A DNA stretch of 21,368 bases from positions 1 to 21,368 of IMG/VR virus record IMGVR_UViG_3300043540_000925; one strand, written 5' to 3'. Both the position numbers and the translations under genes were made by a program. Below the pieces are notes generated by a model. It was not told where the DNA came from, ran no database searches, and saw only the letters and a list, made by a program, of their open reading frames with translations. This DNA is from a virus. Below, in pieces: positions 1-21,096 of this stretch (position 1 is the first letter of the stretch; the number at the start of each line of letters is the position of its first letter).

Positions 1-900
1 GCCAAGCTCCGGGAGAGGAAGAAGGAAGTCCGGCTTGAAGACTACACGACCAGGGACATCTTCGACCTCCTGGACGAGATGCCGAAGACCGCGGTGGCCA
101 TTGCCTTTCTCCCCACTTACGCCGGGGGCTACGAGCGCATGTTCAAGCGCCTGGAAGAAATCTTCGCCTGGAACCGGCCGGCCTACGGGTTGATCGACGC
201 CGAACGCAAGGCCGCCATCCTGGAGAAGATGAAGGCCCGTGACTACCTCTACCTGGATGACCGGGTGGTGGAGGGCCTGCCGATGGTGGCGGTGGTGCGC
301 AAAGCCCGGATGAAGCCGGTTTACGTTTATTCCAACATGGAGGCCCTGCGCCGGGGAGTCCTGAAGCAGCAGCGGCACGAAGAGTTCGTGCCCTTCACCC
401 GCCTGTCCGATGACGATGCGATCACCCCGGAGTCCCAGTTGACCCTGACCCCCACCAGCAACCGGGTGGTGAACTACTACCGGGACGTGTACCTCTCCAA
501 GGGCGTAGGCATCCCGGCGGACGGCGAAGTCCCCCTAGTGGCCGCGGTGGACGGGAAAGTCTTCGGGTTCCTGATCTACTCCCGGATGCAGGGCGGCGGC
601 GATGTGTATCTGCTGGCCGACTTCGTGGTCAACTCCGGGCGCTATCGGCGCCTGGCCAAGCTCCTGGTTCTGGTGACCCAGACCAGGGAAGTCCGGAAAC
701 TGCTGGAAGAGAAGTTCCTGCTGGAAATCTCCAGGTGCCGCACCATGGTCTTCACCGACAAGCCGGTGTCCATGAAGTACCGGGGCCTTTACAAGCTGGC
801 CCGGCGGGACCCAGGCAAACTGGTGTATGAGACCGGGATGGGCATCCTGGATCTGAAAGAGGTGATCCCCTTATGGCTGAAGAAATACGAGAAGCCCTGA
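1..900 (+). CDS. Mom-like DNA-modification protein (putative antirestriction adenine methyltransferase family), 5' partial
   Basis: The reading frame is open from base 1, so the start lies outside the window and about 299 codons are visible. Near the left edge the motif AFLPTYAGGYERMFKRLEE resembles motif IV (xPPY) of N6-adenine methyltransferases with the first Pro replaced by Leu. The second half (VAAVDGKVFGFLIYSR, then YLLADFVVNSGRYRRLAKLLV, then KPVSMKYRGLYKL) has the strand-helix rhythm of a GNAT-like domain. It matches my memory of phage proteins annotated as putative antirestriction adenine methyltransferase, related to phage Mu Mom. Mom adds a carbamoylmethyl group to adenine in phage DNA and so blocks host restriction. 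The 3' end overlaps the next ParB-fold gene by 28 bases, so the two are translationally coupled. The family call is from memory of conserved motifs, and the chemistry here is inferred. Confidence 0.55.
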   Translation, partial: AKLRERKKEVRLEDYTTRDIFDLLDEMPKTAVAIAFLPTYAGGYERMFKRLEEIFAWNRPAYGLIDAERKAAILEKMKARDYLYLDDRVVEGLPMVAVVRKARMKPVYVYSNMEALRRGVLKQQRHEEFVPFTRLSDDDAITPESQLTLTPTSNRVVNYYRDVYLSKGVGIPADGEVPLVAAVDGKVFGFLIYSRMQGGGDVYLLADFVVNSGRYRRLAKLLVLVTQTREVRKLLEEKFLLEISRCRTMVFTDKPVSMKYRGLYKLARRDPGKLVYETGMGILDLKEVIPLWLKKYEKP

Positions 901-1667
901 ACCTGCTCAACGAGAAGCTGGCCGGGCTGTTTCCTTATCGCCTGGAACTGGCCGATCCTTCCGAGCTAAGGCTCCTAGAAAAGAACGCCCGCTTCATGAA
1001 GGCGGAGCAGTTCCAGAACCTGGTGGAGAACGTCAAGAAGGACGGCAACCTGTCCTCTCTGCCGCTTTGCTACCGGGAGAAAGACGGGAAGCTCCGGGTG
1101 CTCTCCGGCAACCACCGGGTCATGGCCGCCCGCCAGGCCGGGGTGGAGCAGGTCCTGGTGCTGATGATCGCCGACGAAAAGGACGTGGACGAGAGGCTGG
1201 CCATTCAGCTTTCCCACAACGCCATCGCCGGCCAGGACGACTTGGTCATCCTGAAGGAGCTGTGGGAGAGCATCAAGGACGTGCAGGCCCGGATGTACGC
1301 CGGGCTGGACTCCGACACCCTCAAGGCCCTCCAGGGCATCCAGTTTGCGGCCATCACCGAGCAGCGCCTGCGCTACAAGCTGACCAGCTTCCTGTTTCTC
1401 CCGGAAGAGCTGGAGGACCTGGATCAGCTATTGAAGGAGACCGCCGCGGCCTTTGCCGGGGATGCAGTGTACCTCGCGAATCTGAACACCTACGACGCCT
1501 TCTTCGAGCTCATCGTGCGCATCAAGAAACGTTGCCAGATCAAGAACTCTGCGGCGGCCTTTTTGAAGCTGATGGAGCTGGCCCGCATCGGGTTGGAGCA
1601 ACTGCAGGAGGAGGAAGCCCAGCAGCAAGGCGAAAGCTCCCAGGAGGCTTGCCATGGGCTGGGCTGA
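873..1667 (+). CDS. ParB/Srx-fold N-terminal domain protein
   Basis: 264 aa. Residues 25-110 form a ParB/sulfiredoxin-like domain, with LEKNARFMKAEQFQNLVENVKKDG followed by SGNHRVMAARQAG at 78-90, the G-x-x-R phosphate-binding signature of ParB N-domains. The rest is helical, without the central HTH or dimer domain of a partition ParB, and ends in a Glu/Gln-rich tail. Phage ParB-fold proteins of this type usually sit beside terminase or DNA-modification genes; proposed roles are nucleotide-binding, nuclease or kinase-like activities rather than segregation. An SD GAGGTG lies 9 bases upstream of the ATG, inside the preceding gene. The stop overlaps the next gene by 14 bases. Fold assignment is firm; the biochemical role is open. 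Confidence 0.8.
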   Translation: MAEEIREALNLLNEKLAGLFPYRLELADPSELRLLEKNARFMKAEQFQNLVENVKKDGNLSSLPLCYREKDGKLRVLSGNHRVMAARQAGVEQVLVLMIADEKDVDERLAIQLSHNAIAGQDDLVILKELWESIKDVQARMYAGLDSDTLKALQGIQFAAITEQRLRYKLTSFLFLPEELEDLDQLLKETAAAFAGDAVYLANLNTYDAFFELIVRIKKRCQIKNSAAAFLKLMELARIGLEQLQEEEAQQQGESSQEACHGLG

Positions 1668-2043
1668 AGCGTTGCTTCCCTACCGGGCCTCCGACGATCC
1701 CCAGGGCTTCCTGGGGGCGGCTCTGCTGGCCCAGGACCAGACCCTCTTTCGGCTGGCCGCCACCTGGCCCCGGGTCAAGAAGGTTCTTCCGCCCCCACCT
1801 GGACCGGGAGAGGAGATCGACCTGGATAAGGTTTGGGAGCAGGTCAAGGTCGATTTCGATGAGTGGGCCGAACTGGCACAAGTGAGCACCTTGGTCGCTA
1901 TCCGCGGGTTCCAGGTGTTGAAGAAAAACCTGATCATTTTTCCGCCCGATTACTTGTCCCATCAGGCAGAGGCGGTGCTCAAGAAAGAGGCGGCCGGGAG
2001 GTTCATGACCAAACTGGGCCTGAAACCGGGAGACTTGAAATGA
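1654..2043 (+). CDS. Uncharacterised protein between ParB and terminase nuclease genes
   Basis: 129 aa, not recognised. It is mostly helical, with a Pro-rich turn (LPPPPGPGEE) near residues 45-54 that separates two helical parts, and has no Cys cluster, signal peptide or membrane segment. The SD GGAGG lies 6 bases before the ATG. The gene overlaps ParB upstream by 14 bases and joins the terminase nuclease gene by an ATGA stop/start overlap. Its tight coupling to a terminase fragment makes a packaging or DNA-binding accessory possible, but no motif shows this. Confidence 0.6.
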   Translation: MGWAEALLPYRASDDPQGFLGAALLAQDQTLFRLAATWPRVKKVLPPPPGPGEEIDLDKVWEQVKVDFDEWAELAQVSTLVAIRGFQVLKKNLIIFPPDYLSHQAEAVLKKEAAGRFMTKLGLKPGDLK

Positions 2044-2546
2044 ACCATAACCTGGCAGTGTTTGCCTACCGGCCCGAAGGCGAGCTTTACCTGGGTGTCG
2101 ACTTCGGCTACCGCAATCCCTTTGCCTGCCTGTGGATTCAGCCCATCGATAAAGGCGAGCGGGTCCTGGTGCTGGATGAATACTACCAGCGCTACCGCAC
2201 CACCGCGGAGAATGGCCGGGCGCTCCTGCAACTGCACCAGGCATCCGGTTACGACCGGCTCACCGGCGCCTTCTGTGACCCCTCGGACCCGGAGAAACGG
2301 GCGGTGTTATCTGAAGTCCTGGGCCTTGAAGTCAAGGCGCCCCGCCGCAGCGTGGAGGCGGGGCAGGAACTGGTGCGTCGCTGGCTCAAGGTCCAGCCCG
2401 ACGGCTTTCCCGGCCTCCTGATCCACCATCGCTGTAAAAACCTGATCCGGGAGTTGACCGGATACCTGAAACACGAACCCGGCCAGGGTGAGCACCACGC
2501 GCTGGACGCCTTGAGATACTTCTTCTGCGGGTGGCTCAATGGCTGA
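2040..2546 (+). CDS. Terminase large subunit, stand-alone nuclease domain
   Basis: 168 aa. This is the RNase H-fold nuclease half of a phage large terminase, which cuts concatemeric DNA at the start and end of packaging. The catalytic acids are visible: D21 in LGVDFGYRNPF, D80 in AFCDPSDPEK and D156 in EHHALDALRY. A full large terminase is usually 400-600 aa; here the ATPase half is missing from this gene and is found 3.1 kb downstream (5656-6654). The start at 2040 is chosen for the ATGA overlap with the previous gene and because the domain begins at about residue 10. The frame stays open further upstream, but there it only shadows the 129-aa gene. The stop overlaps the TcmP start. Domain identity is strong; that it pairs with the downstream ATPase is inferred. 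Confidence 0.85.
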   Translation: MNHNLAVFAYRPEGELYLGVDFGYRNPFACLWIQPIDKGERVLVLDEYYQRYRTTAENGRALLQLHQASGYDRLTGAFCDPSDPEKRAVLSEVLGLEVKAPRRSVEAGQELVRRWLKVQPDGFPGLLIHHRCKNLIRELTGYLKHEPGQGEHHALDALRYFFCGWLNG

Positions 2547-3399
2547 GCAGAGCAAAATGAGAGTGCCCGGAGTGGTGAGAATGGCAACGGAATATAACGG
2601 CGTCGGAGCCTCGGAATATACCCGGTATAAGCAGCAGCACCTGAACCAGATTTTGCGGACTCATCTGCGCATCTGCTCGGGGATTCTCAAGGCGCACAAC
2701 GGCTGGGCCCATGAGCAATATCATTACTTCGACCTCAACGCCGGCCCCGGAATCTATATGCACGACGGCGAGATCATCAAGGGGAGCCCCCTGGTCTTCC
2801 TGGAAGAACAGAAGGCCATCGATATGAAGTGTCACGGCGTCTTCTTTGAAATCGATGATGGCCACCGGACCAGGCTGATCCACAATGTCGCCGACTATGC
2901 GGATAAGCCGGGGCTGTCGTTCGCTTTCCACGGGAACCATGAAAAGTTCCTGCCTTGCTATTTCCCTTTGCCGCAGAAGCGGGCGAAACGGGTGTTCGGC
3001 CTGGTCTACTCGGACCCCACCGGCTCGAACCCGCCCTTTGAGCTGTTGCAGAGCATGTTCGAGTGCAAGTGTTTTTCGACCTTGGATGTGCTGCTTTATT
3101 TCTCCGCCACTAATTACAAGCGCCAGTTGATGGCGCCGGCCTGTCCCCTGGCGGAGCGGCTCGATGAAGTCCTGGGCGGCACCAACAAGAAACACTGGAT
3201 CGTCCGCGAGCCTTACGGCAGGCATCAATGGACCTTCCTGATCGGGACCAACTGGACCAAGTTCCCGGAGTTCAAGCAAATCGGCTTCCACCGGATAGAC
3301 CGGCCCGAAGGGAAAAAGATTCTCGCCCGACTGAATTACACCAACATGGAGATGAGGACCAATGGAAATATCGGCCATCATCACGCGCCCTCCCTTTAA
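2539..3399 (+). CDS. tcmP: Three-Cys-motif partner protein TcmP
   Basis: 286 aa from the first ATG, which overlaps the terminase nuclease stop. The SD there is weak, and ATG 2581 (behind GGAGTGG, giving MATEYNGVG) is a realistic alternative closer to the usual family start. The fold looks like a Rossmann methyltransferase: motif I-like FDLNAGPG at 65-71, acidic FFEID at 102-106 after the next strand, and a motif IV-like YSDPTGSNPPF at 157-167. TcmP proteins are named for standing beside proteins with a CxxxCxxC motif, and exactly such a gene follows with a 38-base overlap. The function of the pair is not established. Family confidence is high; the methyltransferase activity is inferred from motifs. 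Confidence 0.85.
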   Translation: MAEQSKMRVPGVVRMATEYNGVGASEYTRYKQQHLNQILRTHLRICSGILKAHNGWAHEQYHYFDLNAGPGIYMHDGEIIKGSPLVFLEEQKAIDMKCHGVFFEIDDGHRTRLIHNVADYADKPGLSFAFHGNHEKFLPCYFPLPQKRAKRVFGLVYSDPTGSNPPFELLQSMFECKCFSTLDVLLYFSATNYKRQLMAPACPLAERLDEVLGGTNKKHWIVREPYGRHQWTFLIGTNWTKFPEFKQIGFHRIDRPEGKKILARLNYTNMEMRTNGNIGHHHAPSL

Positions 3400-4687
3400 C
3401 GAGCTTTTTACCATCAGCCCGGCGGTCCTGGAGAATATCAAGGTATCTATGACCGAAGGCGGCTATGACCAATCCCAGCCCATTGTCTTGTGGGAGGGAG
3501 AAAACGTGGTCATCGACGGTCATACCCGTCTGCAGGCCGCCAGCGAGGTGGGCCTGGAAGACATAACCGTCTTCTACAAAAGCTTCGCTAATGAAGACGA
3601 GGCCCTGGCTTATGCCATCCATAATCAGCGGAACCGGCGGAACCTGACGGATGCCGAAATCCTCCGGTGTATTGAAGCTCTGGACAGCCGGAAAGAGCGG
3701 GGTGGAGACCGGAAAAGCGAGGAGTTCCAGGAAAAATCAAAAGCGCAAGATTGCGCTTTTGAAAAACCGGAATCACCCAATAAGCGCAAAAAGAAGAATA
3801 ACGAGGATAAATCCGCCCAAAAAACCGCGGATATGATGGGCATTTCCACTCGCAAGGTGGAGCAGGCCCGAACGGTCCTGGAGCATGGCGTTGAGGAGGT
3901 CAAGGAAGCGGTGCAGGCGGGCACGATGAGCGTCAATAAAGCCTACCAATTGACCCAGGAATCCCGGCAGGCCAGGGATAAAGGCCGCTCGATCTTCAAC
4001 CGCACCCATGACAACATCGAATGGGCCTGCTGGACCTGGAACCCGGTCACCGGCTGCAAGCACGACTGTCCCTATTGTTACGCCCGGGACATCGCCGCCC
4101 GGTTTTATGGCAATAACAAGTTCGACCCGAAGTTCCATCCGGAGCGTCTGGGCGGACCCGCTAATACCAGGCCACCCCAAGACGGTGCGCCCATCGGCGA
4201 ACGCAATGTCTTTGTCTGTTCCATGGCGGACCTTTTCGGCGCCTGGGTGCCCCAGGAGTGGATCGATGCGGTGATGAAGGAGGTTAGAGAAGCGCCTCAA
4301 TGGAATTTTCTGTTTCTCACCAAGAATCCGGGACGCCTGGTGGGCATCGACTGGCCGCCCAACGCCTGGGTGGGAACCACGGTGGATTGCCAGGAGCGGG
4401 TAGCCGCGGCCGAGAGAGCCTTTGCCAGGATCAAGGCCACGGTCAAGTTCCTGTCCTGCGAACCGCTCTTGGGGGAGGTCAGGTTTCAAAACCTCAAGGT
4501 GTTCGACTGGATCATCATCGGTCCCCGCCGCGTCGGCAAGGAACACGAACAGCCGCAATGGGAATGGGTCGAATCCCTGCTGAATCAGGCCAGGGCCGCG
4601 GGTTTACAGGTTTACTTCAAACCACACCTGTCGGTGAGGCCGAGAGAATATCCTGAAAAAGGGTTCAGGGAGATTAGACATGGCTAA
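3362..4687 (+). CDS. ParB-fold / radical-SAM-like DUF5131 (phage Gp37/Gp68) fusion
   Basis: 441 aa. Residues 1-110 are a ParB/Srx-like domain (IDGHTRLQAA at 51-60). A charged linker (112-150) and an HTH-like stretch (SAQKTADMMGISTRKVEQA, about 151-169) follow. From about 218 on comes DUF5131: IEWACWTWNPVTGCKHDCPYCYAR contains the Cx3Cx2C triad C232, C236, C239 typical of radical SAM [4Fe-4S] binding, followed by FLFLTKNPGRL, WVGTTVD and FLSCEPLLGEV, all hallmarks of Gp37/Gp68. The usual GGESG loop reads GPRRVGK. It is the three-Cys partner of the overlapping TcmP gene. SD GAGG lies 5 bases before the start. The fusion suggests a DNA- or nucleotide-recognition head on a radical enzyme; the substrate is unknown. 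A 12-bp inverted repeat lies inside the linker. Confidence 0.85.
   Translation: MEISAIITRPPFNELFTISPAVLENIKVSMTEGGYDQSQPIVLWEGENVVIDGHTRLQAASEVGLEDITVFYKSFANEDEALAYAIHNQRNRRNLTDAEILRCIEALDSRKERGGDRKSEEFQEKSKAQDCAFEKPESPNKRKKKNNEDKSAQKTADMMGISTRKVEQARTVLEHGVEEVKEAVQAGTMSVNKAYQLTQESRQARDKGRSIFNRTHDNIEWACWTWNPVTGCKHDCPYCYARDIAARFYGNNKFDPKFHPERLGGPANTRPPQDGAPIGERNVFVCSMADLFGAWVPQEWIDAVMKEVREAPQWNFLFLTKNPGRLVGIDWPPNAWVGTTVDCQERVAAAERAFARIKATVKFLSCEPLLGEVRFQNLKVFDWIIIGPRRVGKEHEQPQWEWVESLLNQARAAGLQVYFKPHLSVRPREYPEKGFREIRHG
3737..3762. repeat. Perfect 12-bp inverted repeat inside the ParB-DUF5131 linker
   Basis: The arms are TCAAAAGCGCAA and TTGCGCTTTTGA, separated by GA. The palindrome is in frame and encodes part of the flexible linker (residues around KAQDCAFEK). 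An element this symmetric inside coding DNA may be an inserted palindromic repeat, an operator or an RNA hairpin. Confidence 0.75.
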
Positions 4688-4855: not shown

Positions 4856-5383
4856 ATGACCGAGACTGGAAAAAAGACCATGATGCTGTCTAAGAAGGGG
4901 GAGTCTCAAGCCGGCCTCCCGGTGATCACCAAGGCCCGGCAGTCCCGCATCCGGCAGGTGCAGGAAATGAAGCTCTCGGGCTTCAGACCCGGAGAAATCG
5001 CCACCAAGCTGGGAATCAGCCGGCGCCAGGTGGACCGGGACCTCAAGGACGGCAAGGTCCTCAGCCGCCTCATGGCCCAGGAGTTTGACCAGGACAGTTT
5101 CCTGGGGGACAGCATCAAGTTTTGGCTGCAAATCCGCTGGAAATCCATGCGGGACAGCGAGATGTGCCAGGAGGAAAACGCCAGGATCGGCCACCGCAGA
5201 AATGCCATGACCGCCCAGGAAAAACTGGTGAAGGAACTGCAAGACTGCGGCCTGCTGGCCAAGGTGCCCGAGAGGCTCCTTCTGGGCCCGGACCTGCCCT
5301 TCGAAGACCCGGAGGTGCGGCAGGCCTACCTGGATTTCCTGATCCTGGCCCGGGAGCGGAGCGAAAAAAATCTCGACCTGTGA
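4856..5383 (+). CDS. HTH protein, probable terminase small subunit
   Basis: 175 aa from ATG 4856, behind GAGG at 4846-4849. Upstream in-frame starts would run through the preceding small gene. Residues 28-66 form an HTH (RIRQVQEMKLSGFRPGEIA, then LGISRRQVDRDLK), like the homeodomain-like DNA-binding head of many terminase small subunits, and the rest is helical, as in their oligomerisation region. Terminase small subunits recognise the packaging site and recruit the large subunit. The gene directly precedes the terminase ATPase half, the usual small-then-large order. A general HTH regulator remains possible because no motif is unique to the family. Confidence 0.55.
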   Translation: MTETGKKTMMLSKKGESQAGLPVITKARQSRIRQVQEMKLSGFRPGEIATKLGISRRQVDRDLKDGKVLSRLMAQEFDQDSFLGDSIKFWLQIRWKSMRDSEMCQEENARIGHRRNAMTAQEKLVKELQDCGLLAKVPERLLLGPDLPFEDPEVRQAYLDFLILARERSEKNLDL

Positions 5384-5655: not shown

Positions 5656-6654
5656 ATGCAACGCAAGTTCGTCCAACCTCTTTCGGGCTTTGGCATACAG
5701 GGTGCTACTGTGACCATGTCCCCGCAACCGGACAACCAACACGAAGCTGCCTCTCTGTCCATTGTCAACCCCCGGGCGGCCCTGGCCCTGGTGGAGCATT
5801 ACCGGAAGCACGGCTTCAAGGATTCTGGGGAGCTTCTGAAGTTCATCCAGGCCTTCTGGGGTTTGAGACTCCCCCGGGCCAAGGTCTGTCCCGAACATAC
5901 CCCGCCCGCCGAATACGTCACCGCCGCCTTTTTCGAGGAGGTGCAGAACTGCGTCTGCTGGGCCAACCGGGGCGGCGGCAAGACCTTGAACGGCGCCCTG
6001 GTGACCTGGCTGGACTCCGTGTTCAAGCCGGGCTGTGAAACCAAGATTTTGGGCGGCTCTCTGGAGCAGAGCCAGAAGATGTACGCCCATATCCAGGAGC
6101 GCTTCGCCACGCAATCTTTCATCCACCTGGTGGAGGGTGAGATGCTCAAGACTTTCACCAAGATGGCGGGCGGCGGCAGCATCCAGATCCTGACGGCCTC
6201 CAGCAAGAGTGTCAGGGGTCCGCACCCGCAAAAGCTCAAGTTGGACGAGGTGGACGAAATGGACCCCGAGCTGTACGAGGCAGCCCTGTTCATCCCGCAG
6301 ACGGCCCGGAACATCCAGGCCAGCATCCAGATTTACTCCACCATGCACAAGGCCTACGGCCTGATGAACCGGGTGATCACCGAAGCCGCGGAGAGCGGCT
6401 ACCGCATCTTCAAGTGGTGCATTTTTGACGTAATGGAGAAATGCATGGACCGGGATTGCGATGGCTGCGCCCTGTGGGAAGATTGCGGCGGCAGGGCCAG
6501 GGACGCCGACGGGTTCATCAGGATAGACGATGCCATCACCAAAAAACGCATGGCCTCCCGGGAGTCGTGGGAGGCGGAGGCTTTGTGCCTCATGCCCAGC
6601 CAGGAGGGACTTATCTATCGAGAGTTCGACCCTTCTATCCATGTAGTAAGCTGA
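5656..6654 (+). CDS. Terminase large subunit, ATPase domain only
   Basis: 332 aa from ATG 5656; ATG 5716 is an equally possible start because neither has a clear SD. It is the DNA-packaging motor ATPase. Walker A is ANRGGGKT (103-110), Walker B is LKLDEVDE (194-201), and a coupling-motif-like IYSTM follows. A Cys group (CMDRDCDGCALWEDC) sits in the last third. The protein stops at LIYREFDPSIHVVS, exactly where intact large terminases pass into the nuclease domain, which begins LYLGVDFG in the separate gene at 2040. No nuclease half was found downstream. The frame is open to about 5539 without an obvious start. Domain identity is strong; joint function with the upstream nuclease is inferred. 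Confidence 0.88.
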   Translation: MQRKFVQPLSGFGIQGATVTMSPQPDNQHEAASLSIVNPRAALALVEHYRKHGFKDSGELLKFIQAFWGLRLPRAKVCPEHTPPAEYVTAAFFEEVQNCVCWANRGGGKTLNGALVTWLDSVFKPGCETKILGGSLEQSQKMYAHIQERFATQSFIHLVEGEMLKTFTKMAGGGSIQILTASSKSVRGPHPQKLKLDEVDEMDPELYEAALFIPQTARNIQASIQIYSTMHKAYGLMNRVITEAAESGYRIFKWCIFDVMEKCMDRDCDGCALWEDCGGRARDADGFIRIDDAITKKRMASRESWEAEALCLMPSQEGLIYREFDPSIHVVS

Positions 6655-7080
6655 TCGTATTTAACACCATTACTTAAAGCCTATAAGTAACGGTCAAGAG
6701 AAGCCCTAATAATAGCGGGCAGTGGTGCAGTTTGGTTTTGTTACTAAAGTAACGTCAAACATTATATTGATAGTGAGAATGTTATAAAGGTATAAATAAT
6801 TGTATTTAGAACCATTTTACTGTCAAATAATTTTAACCATGTAACTTCTTATACGTATTACCAATAAGGAGCGAGAGTTGCTTAGCCAATGTGAGGGTAA
6901 AAATAACTGTCTTTCCGTGCTGTATTGATGGGTTAGTATTTATAAAAAAATAACGCCTAAAAGTAACTACTTAATCGCACTATGTTATTGCCTGGATATT
7001 TCTTTGTTATTTAGCCTACTTAGGCATACTGAGTGCATCTCTTCTTATTGAATCGCAACCAAAACCAAACCAAAAAGGAG
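6655..7080. other. AT-rich gene-free segment with AGTAAC/GTTACT repeats
   Basis: No ORF of note on either strand. Base composition changes abruptly from the GC-rich neighbour. The word AGTAAC occurs at 6686-6691, 6748-6753 and 6962-6967, with its inverse GTTACT at 6740-6745. Three small palindromes are built from it: TTACTT/AAGTAA (6670-6690), GTTACT-AA-AGTAAC (6740-6753) and AAGTA-AC-TACTT (6961-6972). A further GCCTA-CT-TAGGC lies at 7014-7025. Repeated short motifs in AT-rich DNA beside terminase genes would fit an origin, a packaging site or a regulator-binding cluster. Confidence 0.5.
6767..6796 (+). promoter_or_regulatory. Possible promoter in the AT-rich segment
   Basis: TTGATA (6767-6772) and TATAAA (6791-6796) are spaced by 18 bases, a reasonable sigma-70-type arrangement, and would transcribe into the structured non-coding region downstream. 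In AT-rich DNA such matches arise easily by chance. Confidence 0.3.
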
Positions 7081-7084
7081 GCCA

Positions 7085-7713
7085 ACTTATCGAACCAAGC
7101 CAAGCCGTCAAAGGTGCCACCAAATAGCTCCCAGGGACGGACCAGGGGAGTCGCCGGTCCATAAAAAATCTCCCCCGACCCAAAAGTAGAAGGCAGACCT
7201 GGAAGCCCCGGAAGTCGGAGCGGGAACCTGAGATAGCAATCAGGGGAAAAATAAAAGCAAATACCCTGCAACCAGGCCAATTGAGGCGGTGAGAGGGTCC
7301 CGGCCGACCTGGAGCGGTAACTCAACCCAGGTGAGAGGCGGGTAGGATGGCAGAACCGAACATACTGCCCGGTCTTTTGAGTTGACTAGAACTCTGGTTT
7401 TTCTTCTTTGACCCACAGAAGAAGGGGCCATCGGAGCCCTTACATCCGAAGCGGAGCTAAGAACCGGGAGCGAGGCGAAACCGGGAGCGACCCGAACCTA
7501 ACTGAGGCGAAGGCCAGCCGGCCCGTGGTGCGTGCGACGGGAGGGCCGGAAGGAAGGGGCGGCAAGGCAAGCGAGCGGAAATAGCAACCGGGAAGGGCGA
7601 AGCGAAACCGGTAACATTCTGACCGTATTGATTTTGGCGCTGAACGGGGGCGGGAGTTTCTGCCAGACATTCCTGGCTCCCTTTGAGCGCCAAGCTCGAT
7701 GTCCCAAAGGGAG
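7085..7713 (+). ncRNA. Candidate large structured non-coding RNA or long leader
   Basis: About 630 bases with no credible gene but many potential stems, read on the + strand: 7139-7143/7156-7160 (GGACC/GGTCC), 7227-7231/7240-7244 (CCTGA/TCAGG), 7307-7312/7327-7332 (ACCTGG/CCAGGT), 7379-7383/7390-7394 (GAGTT/AACTC), 7401-7407/7417-7423 (TTCTTCT/AGAAGAA), 7431-7435/7445-7449 (TCGGA/TCCGA), 7518-7524/7543-7549 (CCGGCCC/GGGCCGG), 7587-7591/7608-7612 (ACCGG/CCGGT) and 7634-7641/7686-7693 (TTGGCGCT/AGCGCCAA). Loops are purine-rich with GNRA-like runs. A 12-base direct repeat (AACCGGGAGCGA) lies at 7462 and 7479. Large ornate RNAs such as GOLLD and ROOL occur in phages at such places, but I cannot match a consensus by eye. 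The ends are approximate. Confidence 0.45.
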
Positions 7714-9873: not shown

Positions 9874-10092
9874 ATGAAGAAAGCCTTTACCGTCATCATC
9901 GAGAGAGACCCGGAAAGCGGGTGGCTGATAGGAGAAGTGTTGGAACTCCCTGGTTGTTATTCTCAGGCACCTGATCTACCTACCTTAGAGGCCAATATGA
10001 AAGAGGCCATCTCTGTTTATCTTCAGACCACGGTTCTTGAAGAACCTCTATCATCTTTCGTGGGAACCTGGCAGGTGGAGGTAACTGCATGA
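9874..10092 (+). CDS. hicB: HicB family antitoxin
   Basis: 72 aa. The partial RNase H-like fold of HicB is clear: FTVIIERDPESGWLIGEVLELPGCYSQAPDLPTLEANMKEAI matches the family pattern (strand, ExPGC, helix). HicB binds and blocks HicA. There is no C-terminal DNA-binding domain, so autoregulation would need another mode. SD-like GAGGAAGG lies upstream. The stop overlaps the hicA start (ATGA). Antitoxin-first order is less common than hicAB but well known. Confidence 0.9.
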   Translation: MKKAFTVIIERDPESGWLIGEVLELPGCYSQAPDLPTLEANMKEAISVYLQTTVLEEPLSSFVGTWQVEVTA

Positions 10093-10322
10093 CCAGACTC
10101 CGCCTGGTTTCTTACCGAGAGCTTAAGAAGGTAGTCCAGGCGGCAGGTTTTCGATGGATCAGATGTGAGGGCAGCCATAATGTCTTCCGGCATGATAGCG
10201 GAAAAATTGTGGTGATTCCTGATCATGGGACACAGATTATTGTTAGACCACTCCTGCGAAAAATTCTGCGTGACCTGGGATTGAAACCTGAAGAATATCA
10301 CCGTCTCTTAGATGAATTATAG
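10089..10322 (+). CDS. hicA: HicA family mRNA interferase toxin
   Basis: 77 aa with a dsRNA-binding-like fold: SYRELKKVVQAAGF, then EGSHNVFRH (27-35) holding the catalytic His H30, then VVIPDHG and a C-terminal helix starting at LRKILRDLGL. HicA cleaves mRNA and is neutralised by the coupled HicB. The length is normal for the family (60-80 aa) and all key motifs are intact, so it is probably active. It is followed by a terminator. Confidence 0.92.
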   Translation: MTRLRLVSYRELKKVVQAAGFRWIRCEGSHNVFRHDSGKIVVIPDHGTQIIVRPLLRKILRDLGLKPEEYHRLLDEL

Positions 10323-10493: not shown

Positions 10494-10539
10494 TGAAATC
10501 GAGTCGATGTTAGGTAAAATTGCCATAGAGGAGAGGCCG

Positions 10540-10848
10540 ATGGACCCGATAACCCAAAAGTGCAAAGAGGTTTTGGAGAAGCATTATGGGGACCGGTTTG
10601 CCGGTCTCATTCTATACGGCTCCCAGGCGCGCGGCGAAGCCGGGGCGGGGAGTGATATCGATCTGCTGGTCTTGCTCCATGGGCCATTCGATTATTTTCA
10701 GGAAATCTGGAACCTGGCCGAGGTGCTCTATCCGTTACAATTGGAATCGGACCGGTTGATTTCCGTCAAACCTGCGGCAGTGCAAGACTTCCAGGCTGGT
10801 ATTTTACAGTTCTATCGCCACGCCCGGCGGGAAGGGATACAGCTATGA
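10540..10848 (+). CDS. MNT-type nucleotidyltransferase (antitoxin of an MNT/HEPN pair)
   Basis: 102 aa from ATG 10540, behind GAGGAG; an in-frame ATG at 10507 has no SD. It is a minimal nucleotidyltransferase: GSQARGEAGAGSDIDLLVLL contains G27-S28 and the metal-binding D39 and D41. In characterised pairs such as MntA/HepT the enzyme transfers AMP to the HEPN toxin and silences it. The stop overlaps the HEPN start (ATGA). The frame is open upstream to 10432 and reads like protein (KSVAAIEIISEIESMLGK), perhaps the tail of a lost gene. The pair sits between two copies of a terminator plus AAA+ 5' end. Confidence 0.88.
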   Translation: MDPITQKCKEVLEKHYGDRFAGLILYGSQARGEAGAGSDIDLLVLLHGPFDYFQEIWNLAEVLYPLQLESDRLISVKPAAVQDFQAGILQFYRHARREGIQL

Positions 10849-11264
10849 GCCTGCCGCTCTTCGAGCCTGAAGTTACGGCCAACCTGGAGCGGGCGGAAGA
10901 ATCCATCCGGGCGGCCCAATTGCTCTATGAAGCCGGGCATTGGGATTTTGCTGCGGCCCGGGCTTATTATGCCACCTTTTATGCCGCCACCGCGGCCTTG
11001 TTGAGCGAAGGCCGGGAATACCTGAAACACAGCGGCGTCATTGCCGCCATTCATAAATTCTTGGTCAAAACCGGCAAGCTGGATAAAGAGCACGGCAAAA
11101 ATCTGAACTGGCTCTTTGAACTGCGCAGCATTGGCGATTACGGCGACACCCGGCATGTGCCCCAAGAAGACGCTTCCAGAGCCATTGCAGTCGCCCAATC
11201 ATTTGTTGCAGCCATCAAGAAAATCTTGAAACACCGGGAGCAGAAAACCTCCCTTTCGGGGTGA
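10845..11264 (+). CDS. HEPN domain protein (toxin of an MNT/HEPN pair)
   Basis: 139 aa, all-helical. The N-terminal part (NLERAEESIRAAQLLYEAG, then AARAYYATFYAATAALL) and the later LRSIGDYGDTRH (93-104) with the conserved Arg and D-Y-G are typical of HEPN proteins paired with MNT enzymes. HEPN toxins are RNases that use an Arg/His motif; here the spacing R94 to H104 is longer than the strict Rx4-6H, so the active residues are uncertain. Coupled to MNT by ATGA and followed by a terminator. Defence or stabilisation of the element is the likely role. Confidence 0.87.
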   Translation: MSLPLFEPEVTANLERAEESIRAAQLLYEAGHWDFAAARAYYATFYAATAALLSEGREYLKHSGVIAAIHKFLVKTGKLDKEHGKNLNWLFELRSIGDYGDTRHVPQEDASRAIAVAQSFVAAIKKILKHREQKTSLSG

Positions 11265-13831: not shown

Positions 13832-14152
13832 ATGACAGAGAAGCGCCAACCTACTTACGACCTTGCAGCATTCAAGGCTGCTTTTAGCAGCGTTGAGAGG
13901 CTGGCCGTTACCGGCACGGCTTTAAGAGGCGCCGCCGCTCTGGGATTTGGACGCGCTGAGATCGTCGAAACGATCCAGACCATGCAACGGGAGTATTTTT
14001 ACAAATCCATGACCTCTTATGCCGACCACCGGCTTTGGCAGGATGTGTACCATGTCCCATCATCGGTTGGGATGTTGTATATCAAGTTTACCGCCGATGC
14101 TATAACCGAGTTTTTGTTGCTCTCGTTCAAGGAGAAAGACAATGAGCGCTAA
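13832..14152 (+). CDS. mqsR: MqsR family mRNA interferase toxin
   Basis: 106 aa from ATG 13832 (a GTG at 13823 is less likely). The signature EYFYKSMTSYADHRLWQDVY, then VYLK-like MLYIKF and the final LLLSFKEK match E. coli MqsR closely, including the Lys of FYKSM and the Gln/Tyr of WQDVY. MqsR is a RelE-fold endoribonuclease that cuts mRNA at GCU. The antitoxin follows with an 11-base overlap in toxin-first order, as in E. coli. Controlled by the palindromic promoter just upstream. All key residues seem intact. Confidence 0.92.
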   Translation: MTEKRQPTYDLAAFKAAFSSVERLAVTGTALRGAAALGFGRAEIVETIQTMQREYFYKSMTSYADHRLWQDVYHVPSSVGMLYIKFTADAITEFLLLSFKEKDNER

Positions 14153-14591
14153 TCCTTCATGTCCGAAAACGGGGGCCCCGATGCATCGCGACGTGCGGCC
14201 TATGACTTTGACCTATAAGGGGGAGTCGATCTCCTTCGATATGCCCGGCTGGTATTGTGACGATTGCGAGGAGAGCATCCACATCGGCAAGGATATGAAG
14301 GTATCAGACCGGATGTTGAACCGCCTGAAGGCGCGTAGTGAAGGGTTGCTGACGCCGGAAGAGATTCGGCGAATTCGGAAGAAACTACGACTTTCTCAAG
14401 AATCTGCCGGTCTGCTGATCGGCGGCGGGCCGCGGGCCTTCCAGAAATACGAAAATGGCGACCTGCTGCCGAGCCGGGCGATCAGCAGTGCTTTGGTTCT
14501 TCTTGATCACGACCCAGATGCCTTAGCAGTTTTAAAAGAGCGGCAAGAAGCGGCCTCAGTCCCATCACAAGCCATGTCAAAAGTGGGATAA
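14142..14591 (+). CDS. mqsA: MqsA family antitoxin
   Basis: 149 aa. An N-terminal metal-binding part (CPKTGAPMHRDVRP, YKGESISFDMPGWYCDDC) and a C-terminal XRE-type HTH (LRLSQESAGLLIGGGPRAF, KYENG, LPS). The first Zn motif has only one Cys (C7, with T10 in place of the second), while C39 and C42 are kept; this variant is common in the family as I recall. MqsA binds MqsR and represses the shared promoter via the HTH. SD GGAG lies in the mqsR tail. Confidence 0.92.
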   Translation: MSANPSCPKTGAPMHRDVRPMTLTYKGESISFDMPGWYCDDCEESIHIGKDMKVSDRMLNRLKARSEGLLTPEEIRRIRKKLRLSQESAGLLIGGGPRAFQKYENGDLLPSRAISSALVLLDHDPDALAVLKERQEAASVPSQAMSKVG

Positions 14592-17767: not shown

Positions 17768-17827
17768 GAGGTGATGGCATCCGGAATTATACATTAAGAA
17801 TAAATACTTCAAGTTCAGGGAGGATTG

Positions 17828-18184
17828 ATGTTTACCAGTTATTTCTGGCGCTTCCATCACAAGGAAGTCCCCCACCTGGTCTCAATCGCCTTAAAAACCC
17901 CGGAGTGGTTCCACGGCCGGCGCTATCCGGCACTGGCGCCTACCAGGAAAATGCTCAAAATGTGCGAGGACAAATACCGGGTGGCCTATCAAAAAATCCT
18001 GAACCGGCTGGATCCCCGGAAGGTTTACGAGGTCCTGGGCCCGGAGGCGGTGCTACTCTGTTGGGAATATCCTGGCGAGTTTTGCCATCGGCGTCTGGTG
18101 GCGGAGTGGCTGGAAAAACACTTGGGGATTCAAGTGCCGGAGTTGCCCGCAAATTATGACGAACGGCAAAACACCTTATTCTGA
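17828..18184 (+). CDS. DUF488 family protein
   Basis: 118 aa from ATG 17828 (in-frame TTG just before it rejected), behind GGGAGG. The C-terminal signature AVLLCWEYPGEFCHRRLVAEWL and IQVPEL is that of DUF488, a small family of unknown function found in chromosomes and phages, with the conserved Cys-His-Arg (CHR). The N-terminus (FTSYFWRFHH, HLVSIALKTPEWF) is consistent with the YTIGYxG start of other members in altered form. Length is normal for the family. Confidence 0.75.
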   Translation: MFTSYFWRFHHKEVPHLVSIALKTPEWFHGRRYPALAPTRKMLKMCEDKYRVAYQKILNRLDPRKVYEVLGPEAVLLCWEYPGEFCHRRLVAEWLEKHLGIQVPELPANYDERQNTLF

Positions 18185-19863: not shown

Positions 19864-19942
19864 GGCGAGTGATGCCAAGTCACCCGCCTTTGTTGTTTCT
19901 GGAGGACATCAATCTTTCGGCCTGCTTTGGTGGGCCGTTTCT
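19864..19942 (+). terminator. Two terminator-like hairpins in the dnaN leader
   Basis: First: GGCG-A-GTGA/TCAC-C-CGCC (19864-19888) with a T-rich tail, then an orphan CTGGAGG with no start near it. Second: CGGCC/GGCCG (19918-19937) followed by TTTCTT. The real dnaN SD AAGGAGG comes after both. Confidence 0.5.
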
Positions 19943-19965
19943 TAATCCTGAAGGAGGAAATCGAC

Positions 19966-21096
19966 ATGCAGATCAATATTGAGCGTGAAACTTTGTTAAA
20001 AGGAATCGGTCATGTCCTGGGCGTGGTGGACAAGCGGGGGACGCTCCCCATCCTGAGCCACTGCTTGCTGCAAACCAATGGTAACGGCGTCTTTATTTCG
20101 GCTACCGATCTGGAAATCAGCTTCCGGGGCTTTTATCCGGCAGAGGTGACGGAGCCTGGCGCCCTGACGGTGCAGGCCGGCTACTTCAACAACCTAATCA
20201 AGGACCTGCCCAAGGGCCCGCTGGCCCTGGTGGGCACAGACAAGGCCGCCATGCAGATTCAGACGGGGGGCTCCCGCTACCAACTTTATGGCCTGGCCGC
20301 GGAGCAGTTTCCGCCCATCCCAGAGACTCCGGCAGAAAACCTGGTGGAGGTGGACAGCCGGTTGCTGAAGGAGATGATCCTCAAGACCATCTTCTCGGTC
20401 TCCGGCGACGACCTGCAATACAACCTCTCGGCGATTTTTTGTGAGCGGGTGGAAATGGATGAGGGCAGTTGGCTCCGCCTGGTCTCCACCGACGGCCACC
20501 GCCTCACCCTGGTGGAGCGGCCTCTGCCCGAAGGCGAGCAGTTGGGCCTGGGTGAGGGCATCCTGGTTCCGTATAAGGCCATGCGGGAGATCGGCAGGTT
20601 TCTGGACGGCCAGGAGAAAGTGGCCATAGGCTTGGCCGAGAAAGTCCTGGCCCTGCAAGCCACCGACAAGCATCTCTTTGTCCGGCTCCTGGACCGCAAG
20701 TTTCCCGATTACCGGCGCATCATCCCGGAAAGCTTCACCTATCGCTTCTCGGTCAATCGTAAGGAACTGACCGAAACTCTGAAGCGGATCGCCCAGTTAT
20801 CGAGCGACCGCTTCAAGGGCGTGATCTTCAAGCTGGCGGCGGACACGGCGGAAGTCACTTTTGCCAACCCGGATGTGGGCGAAGGCCGGGAACTGCTCTC
20901 GGTAACTCTGGAATCGGGCGATGCGGACCAGCTTCCCCTGGAGCTTGGTTTCAACGCCCGCTATCTCCTGGAGCCCCTGCAGGCCATGACCGGCGACATG
21001 GTATTCTTGGAGATCAACGACACTGACCGTCCCTGCCGCCTCATGGATCAGGAAGATCCCCACTACTTCTGTCTGGTGATGCCCATGAGTCTTTAG
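19966..21096 (+). CDS. dnaN: DNA polymerase III beta subunit (sliding clamp)
   Basis: 376 aa from ATG 19966, 8 bases after AAGGAGG. Full-length clamp (about 365 aa is usual) with the three-domain pattern: LPILSHCLLQTNGNGVFISATDLE near 27-50, LRLVSTDGHRLTLVERPLP in the middle, RKFPDYRRIIPE after it, and the C-terminal YFCLVMPMSL that lies at the partner-binding pocket. The clamp tethers replicative polymerase to DNA. A copy on a phage-like element implies that it supplies part of its own replisome; no polymerase is in the window. The stop TAG forms part of the CTTTAGGTAAAA motif. Confidence 0.95.
   Translation: MQINIERETLLKGIGHVLGVVDKRGTLPILSHCLLQTNGNGVFISATDLEISFRGFYPAEVTEPGALTVQAGYFNNLIKDLPKGPLALVGTDKAAMQIQTGGSRYQLYGLAAEQFPPIPETPAENLVEVDSRLLKEMILKTIFSVSGDDLQYNLSAIFCERVEMDEGSWLRLVSTDGHRLTLVERPLPEGEQLGLGEGILVPYKAMREIGRFLDGQEKVAIGLAEKVLALQATDKHLFVRLLDRKFPDYRRIIPESFTYRFSVNRKELTETLKRIAQLSSDRFKGVIFKLAADTAEVTFANPDVGEGRELLSVTLESGDADQLPLELGFNARYLLEPLQAMTGDMVFLEINDTDRPCRLMDQEDPHYFCLVMPMSL

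Follow-up and report, generated by a model that had tools for sequence, protein, structure and literature searches.

A Dam/Mom-like fusion protein with ParB, DUF488 and tRNA-Gly partners in phages: a possible link between glycyl-tRNA and DNA hypermodification

Several described systems resemble parts of the gene module with which a 21,368-base virus fragment of IMG/VR begins (record IMGVR_UViG_3300043540_000925; the whole stretch is called the window below). The first gene of this module encodes a DAM-like domain joined to a GNAT domain (DAM-GNAT) and the second a ParB-fold protein. Phage Mu Mom, known for N6-carbamoylmethyl-adenine, is alike in its GNAT fold, the proposed acyl transfer to adenine and the anti-restriction setting, but with 241 amino acids (aa) it is too small to include a Dam domain, and no sequence similarity to it was found. 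The Dam, or D12-class, adenine methyltransferases resemble the N-terminal domain in fold (Z 12-13), whereas the window family has P/L-P-T-Y in the place of DPPY and is not expected to methylate. Pfam lists these domains under names of phage families (PF22555, PF22556, PF22559 and PF22751), so that the protein family itself is not new, and the window protein clearly belongs to PF22555/PF22559; a tRNA-Gly partner and a clamp-binding tail on DUF488, however, were not found in the accessible texts on them. GNAT-fold transferases that depend on aminoacyl-tRNA include the Fem ligases and L/F transferase, and the combination of a GNAT fold with a dedicated non-canonical tRNA-Gly recalls FemXAB and the tRNA-Gly of the staphylococcal cell wall; the acceptor proposed for the module differs from theirs in being DNA. 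The work of Burroughs and Aravind of 2023 on the rhodanese-phosphatase superfamily reportedly predicts DUF488-containing nucleic-acid-modifying systems in virus-host conflicts.

The frame of the first gene is open to base 1 of the window, and its product corresponds to the C-terminal two-thirds of complete relatives of about 432 aa, whose N-terminus is about 130-160 aa longer; it is 94-95% identical to the full 432-aa proteins of four of them (loci L002-L005). PF22555 (DAM-like-phage1; E 1.9e-19) is followed by PF22559 (GNAT-phage-like; E 1.6e-33), both above the gathering score, as is also the case in the relatives L048 and L098, and phrog_7858 is matched at E 1.2e-58. Folds were compared on an AlphaFold model of the L002 homologue (pLDDT 87), in which residues 2-249 align with the Dam enzymes of E. 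coli and T4 (Z 12-13.4) and residues 274-415 with phage Mu Mom (8bv8_A; Z 10.7, root-mean-square deviation 3.1, 134 residues). Mu Mom ranked first among the GNAT structures for the C-terminal half, with others less than 1 Z unit behind and so tied with it. An earlier reading of the letters of the window alone (the original prediction) had called this protein Mom-like and had named a GNAT or methyltransferase fold as the point to be checked; both folds were found, one in each half, and the model supports a Mom-like enzyme. Aminoacyl-tRNA transferases are absent among the 50 fold matches listed for the GNAT half, which shows neither a relation nor its absence, and sequence searches of the Protein Data Bank with DAM-GNAT, DUF488, TcmP, ParB and DUF5131 queries gave nothing useful.

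The catalytic motif of Dam is degenerate in this family, DPPY having become FPPTY or FLPTY (in the window FLPTY, positions 106-120), with neither an acidic nor an amide residue at the Asp position, while CSG and NDVS, which resemble an S-adenosylmethionine site, and PTY are conserved. An active Dam methylase was rejected because the D/N-P-P-Y motif is not kept, and the loss of the Asp favours a DAM-like domain that probably binds the base and does not methylate it. Gut-type relatives carry an amidoligase joined to the DAM-GNAT core (Amidoligase_2 + DAM-like-phage2 + GNAT-phage-like), sometimes next to a gene of pyridoxal-phosphate type or an alanine-dehydrogenase-like gene, and both the fusion and these neighbours fit an amino-acid-derived modification. 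Metagenome genomes of Deltaproteobacteria and Syntrophales (L261-L270) contain near relatives of the first gene, and these bacteria are therefore the likely host group of the window phage. With slightly more confidence than doubt, the left part of the window may be read as the end of an operon for Mom-type DNA hypermodification in a Deltaproteobacteria phage.

The partners of DAM-GNAT were counted in loci that contain the first gene (70 viral and 60 from cellular genomes, plus cultured-phage and plasmid loci), of which dereplication at 80% identity left 82 to be compared with 120 random viral loci. ParB is present in 81 of the 82 and in none of the 120, and the co-occurrence across genomes that the original prediction had expected thus holds for this partner. 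The ParB gene lies directly downstream of DAM-GNAT in nearly all viral loci, and SGNHR and QLSHNxIxGxDD are near-invariant in its products. Likewise, a DUF488 gene is found in 62/82 module loci vs 0/120 random ones (by whole record, 28/37 vs 0/50), at most 4.5 kb upstream in 45 of the 58 loci that have enough upstream sequence, and it retains the cysteine signature LLCxE...CHR. Qxx[LM]F is a bacterial sliding-clamp-binding motif. It stands at the C-terminus of 27 of 102 DUF488 copies, from many lineages, and of 8 of 11226 other open reading frames (ORFs), occurring once within DUF488 bodies; the copies being related, the p-value of this contrast is overstated. The window carries a second gene of DUF488 type, whose product is homologous to the DUF488 found 5' of DAM-GNAT in relatives, and also a sliding clamp of its own (Table 1). 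Going by the relatives, the full unit would run DUF488, tRNA-Gly (or tRNA-Gly-like RNA), DAM-like/GNAT and ParB, after which packaging genes come next in this group. The DUF488 gene and the tRNA-Gly or tRNA-Gly-like RNA are newly described here as conserved partners of DAM-GNAT-ParB; the open-licence literature yielded no earlier account of a connection with tRNA, which does not exclude a previous publication.

In relatives, a tRNA-Gly or a shrunken tRNA-Gly-like RNA usually sits between DUF488 and DAM-GNAT. An annotated tRNA-Gly lies just upstream of the DAM-GNAT gene in mycobacteriophages Jeon and Argie. ARAGORN found 35 tRNAs, at least 22 of them Gly-like, in the module loci (1.58 Mb) and 1 in random viral DNA (1.03 Mb). 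A pattern scan for a T-arm, an anticodon hairpin and an imposed GCG acceptor, the last not being imposed by ARAGORN or by the covariance search, gave 29 U73 matches, all on the module strand, with 0 on the opposite strand and 0 in controls. A relaxed acceptor/T-arm pattern was dropped for its 18 U73 chance matches in controls, and its union counts are unused. A covariance model built from 27 pattern-scan elements gave 29 matches in 87 loci outside the model, of which 21 have both U73 and a glycine anticodon and lie at most 5 kb from the module, vs none at E 10 in 92 control loci; some of the held-out loci are closely related to model members (e.g. L009, L021), which makes the test less than fully independent. 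When whole records were scanned, at least 40 bits were reached by 10 of the 32 module viruses and by 0 of the 50 random ones. Pairing covariation amounts to 0.753 vs 0.164 after shuffling, in an alignment that was fitted to the model and is biased in its favour. The G1-C72 and C2-G71 pairs, U73, the NCC anticodon and the cloverleaf pairing are kept in the relatives.

The form of the RNA bears on what it could do. In the clade of the window (L002-L004, L009, L010, L012, L021, L024, L261, L262), it is a three-arm tRNA-like RNA of 68-69 nucleotides (nt) that ends in U73-CCA, with a D-arm of 3-4 bp and a long anticodon arm showing GACCA, and it looks as though it retains glycyl-tRNA-synthetase identity while being unfit for the ribosome. 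That the tRNA-Gly serves translation by codon compensation, or is the remnant of an integration site, and lies next to the module by chance would agree with the commonness of tRNAs in phages and with the canonical tRNA-Gly of 72-75 nt in Jeon, Argie, L318 and L319. Such a reading is rather doubtful given the strong glycine bias, the module-linked position across unrelated phages and plasmids and the near absence of tRNAs from random viral loci, and many copies are non-canonical, with 6-nt anticodon loops (L061-L065) or a mini D-arm and a long anticodon arm, which makes translation unlikely. The RNA could also be a tRNA mimic that regulates the DAM-GNAT mRNA in cis, in a role comparable to the Com/mom control in Mu, as its position 15-20 nt 5' of the start codon in most members of the window clade would suggest. 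This is quite unlikely, since the element lies 0.6-4.8 kb upstream, or downstream of ParB, in other phages (L060, L029, L057) and its glycine identity is kept. Module and tRNA-Gly are also seen on plasmids of Peribacillus asahii (L322) and Streptomyces (L323), the former of which bears terL and head genes and looks like a phage-plasmid.

As the tRNA-Gly is repeatedly packed with a Mom-like module, the tRNA is suggested to supply the group on DNA. We tentatively propose a widespread phage system, one that may well prove to be otherwise, in which a dedicated and often non-translational tRNA-Gly gives glycine to DNA by means of the Dam/Mom fusion, ParB and a clamp-tethered DUF488. Beside the observed gene content, folds, conservation statistics and tRNA association, we infer a DNA substrate, adenine as the base, glycyl-tRNA as the donor and an anti-restriction role. 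The phage tRNA-Gly would be charged by the host glycyl-tRNA synthetase; DNA would be bound, and adenine flipped out, by ParB together with the DAM-like domain, without methylation in view of the missing Asp; and through the Mom-like GNAT domain the base would receive glycine, or an acyl group derived from glycine, from glycyl-tRNA. The cysteine enzyme DUF488, which would often be tethered to the sliding clamp, may take part in this pathway where DNA is being replicated, the outcome being phage DNA that would resist restriction when it is packaged. The target of DAM-GNAT could instead be a protein or an RNA, as in host takeover or a toxin, given that GNAT enzymes mostly act on proteins, small molecules or aminoacyl-tRNA; the fusion to a Dam fold, Mom as the nearest GNAT fold, the ParB partner, the predicted clamp-binding DUF488 and the frequent adjacency to terminase genes make such a target unlikely.

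A number of results weigh against glycyl-tRNA-dependent modification of DNA by this module. The likeness of the GNAT domain to Mu Mom is one of fold alone, the sequence comparison by hhalign being not significant (probability 0.2%), and no base-modification data were found for any carrier. The strict tRNA element occurs in about 53 of 135 loci and is not universal, being absent, for example, from the gap before DAM-GNAT in L005 and L263. The 33 Mu-type mom loci differ from the module in having no tRNA, and in such loci the host pool would therefore have to suffice. The window itself holds no such element: no Rfam or tRNA match was found in it, and the best tRNA-like score, 13 bits, is not convincing; Rfam scans overlook shrunken tRNA-like RNAs, their sole match being tRNA-Sec at E 0.35. 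An upstream DUF488 is likewise not visible beside the module; since the first base of the contig already falls within DAM-GNAT, both it and the tRNA would lie beyond the left end.

The original prediction had joined the Mom-like enzyme, two ParB folds, TcmP and a radical-SAM-like enzyme of positions 1-4687 into one overlapping set acting on phage DNA. The overlap stands (28, 14, 4, 8 and 38 nt), as do all the motifs quoted for it, namely FLPTY and a GNAT half in the first protein, GNHR in ParB, DLNAGPG and YSDP in TcmP, and GHTR and CKHDCPYC (Cx3Cx2C, at residue 232) in the last protein. The genes are six and not five, a 129-aa ORF and a terminase nuclease gene having been overlooked, and the second ParB is no separate protein but is fused to the radical-SAM-like domain, which itself matches PF04055 at E 0.0035, under the cut-off. 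The stretch consists of two units (1-1667 and 2539-4687) with packaging genes between them. TcmP, whose model (pLDDT 72) has a methyltransferase fold by Foldseek, directly precedes a (ParB-)DUF5131 gene in the window and in about 20 other viral loci. The same order of two genes is seen in the PADLOC candidate PDC-M30 (TcmP + DUF5131), from which the window differs in the fusion of DUF5131 to ParB and in a TcmP with weak similarity to PDC-M30A (E 6e-4); the fusion protein matches PDC-M30B at E 3e-39 and PDC-M41B at E 5e-43.

That all five proteins form one DNA-modification machine, in which the radical-SAM enzyme alters the base and TcmP methylates, is in keeping with the overlap and common orientation of the genes. 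Radical-SAM genes of DUF5131 or PA0069 type also lie near the module in 9/82 loci vs 2/120 random ones (p=0.008), in some cases directly upstream of DUF488 (L008, L017, L020, L268), a recurrence that could reflect a looser tie. The excess weakens at 60% dereplication (p=0.07), and TcmP occurs in 0/82 dereplicated module loci, as in 0/120 random viral loci. In a search without a positive control, 23 other viral records with DUF5131/TcmP gave no match to the GNAT-phage family, and in the sister phages L007, L008 and L016 the site of the cassette is empty, the TerL-nuclease and HTH (helix-turn-helix) genes almost touching. On these grounds TcmP and ParB-DUF5131 are read as a separate, independent cargo cassette; the single five-protein module is rejected by the co-occurrence counts, and a joint machine is very unlikely. 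The co-occurrence that had been expected thus fails for TcmP, and a shared action of TcmP and ParB-DUF5131 with the Mom-like enzyme is not supported. A tblastn search of TcmP against cultured phages gave no match, and the radical-SAM copy of L017 is interrupted by one TGA.

Table 1. Coordinates of the features discussed in the window
Feature	Coordinates	Strand	Remarks
DAM-like + GNAT (Mom-like) enzyme, C-terminal ~300 aa	1..900	+	start cut off by contig edge
ParB-fold protein, partner of the DAM-GNAT gene	873..1667	+	phrog_7405 E 3e-67; GxxR signature GNHR
Unknown 129-aa protein, conserved alongside this phage group's terminase genes	1654..2043	+	no Pfam or PHROG match
Stand-alone TerL nuclease (RNase H-like) domain	2040..2546	+	phrog_5653 E 5e-11
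TcmP, Rossmann methyltransferase-like, first cassette gene	2539..3399	+	TIGR04474 E 5e-17, 62.7 bits, cut-off 53
ParB domain fused to DUF5131 radical-SAM-type domain, second cassette gene	3362..4687	+	PF07505 E 1.3e-44
HTH protein, candidate small terminase	4856..5383	+	weak HTH matches
Stand-alone TerL ATPase domain	5656..6654	+	Walker A GGGKT and DEVDEM
Second DUF488-type gene, ends in beta-clamp-binding-like QNTLF	17825..18184	+	phrog_2450 E 7e-25; PF22751 E 1e-4, below cut-off
Phage-encoded DNA polymerase III beta sliding clamp	19927..21096	+	PF00712 E 6e-26, PF02767, PF02768

The large terminase of the window is split and permuted, the nuclease gene preceding the ATPase gene; the two products match the C-terminal (E 7e-9) and the N-terminal half (E 1e-50), respectively, of the intact TerL of L071, which is a single ORF. 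The permuted order is common to about 15 sister loci and is therefore not an assembly error. The HTH gene is placed between the two terminase genes in sister phages, and the 129-aa gene adjoins the nuclease gene in about 20 sister loci. A second terminase-nuclease-like ORF, preceded by an HTH gene, lies upstream of DUF488 in the upstream region of L002 and in L003, L008, L015 and sisters. The ATPase gene is followed by an AT-rich stretch (6655-7300; GC content about 0.47-0.50) with no convincing genes. Likely toxin-antitoxin genes are HicB/HicA (9874-10322, in which 10089-10322 is the phrog_353 toxin), a nucleotidyltransferase/HEPN-like pair (10507-11264) and an MqsA-like regulator (14142-14591).

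What donates the glycine in Mom-type modification is, to our knowledge, not settled. In a review of jumbo phages from 2021, the donor of Mom is still given as an acyl-CoA 'such as glycyl coA' (PMC7824862). The repeated linkage of tRNA-Gly to Mom-like enzymes points to glycyl-tRNA as the donor, a question that is directly testable in cultured Mycobacterium smegmatis and Gordonia phages. If the proposal is true, DNA chemistry would be added to the roles of tRNA, the tRNAs carried by phages would serve anti-restriction and not translation, and the clamp motif of DUF488 would tie the modification to the replication fork.

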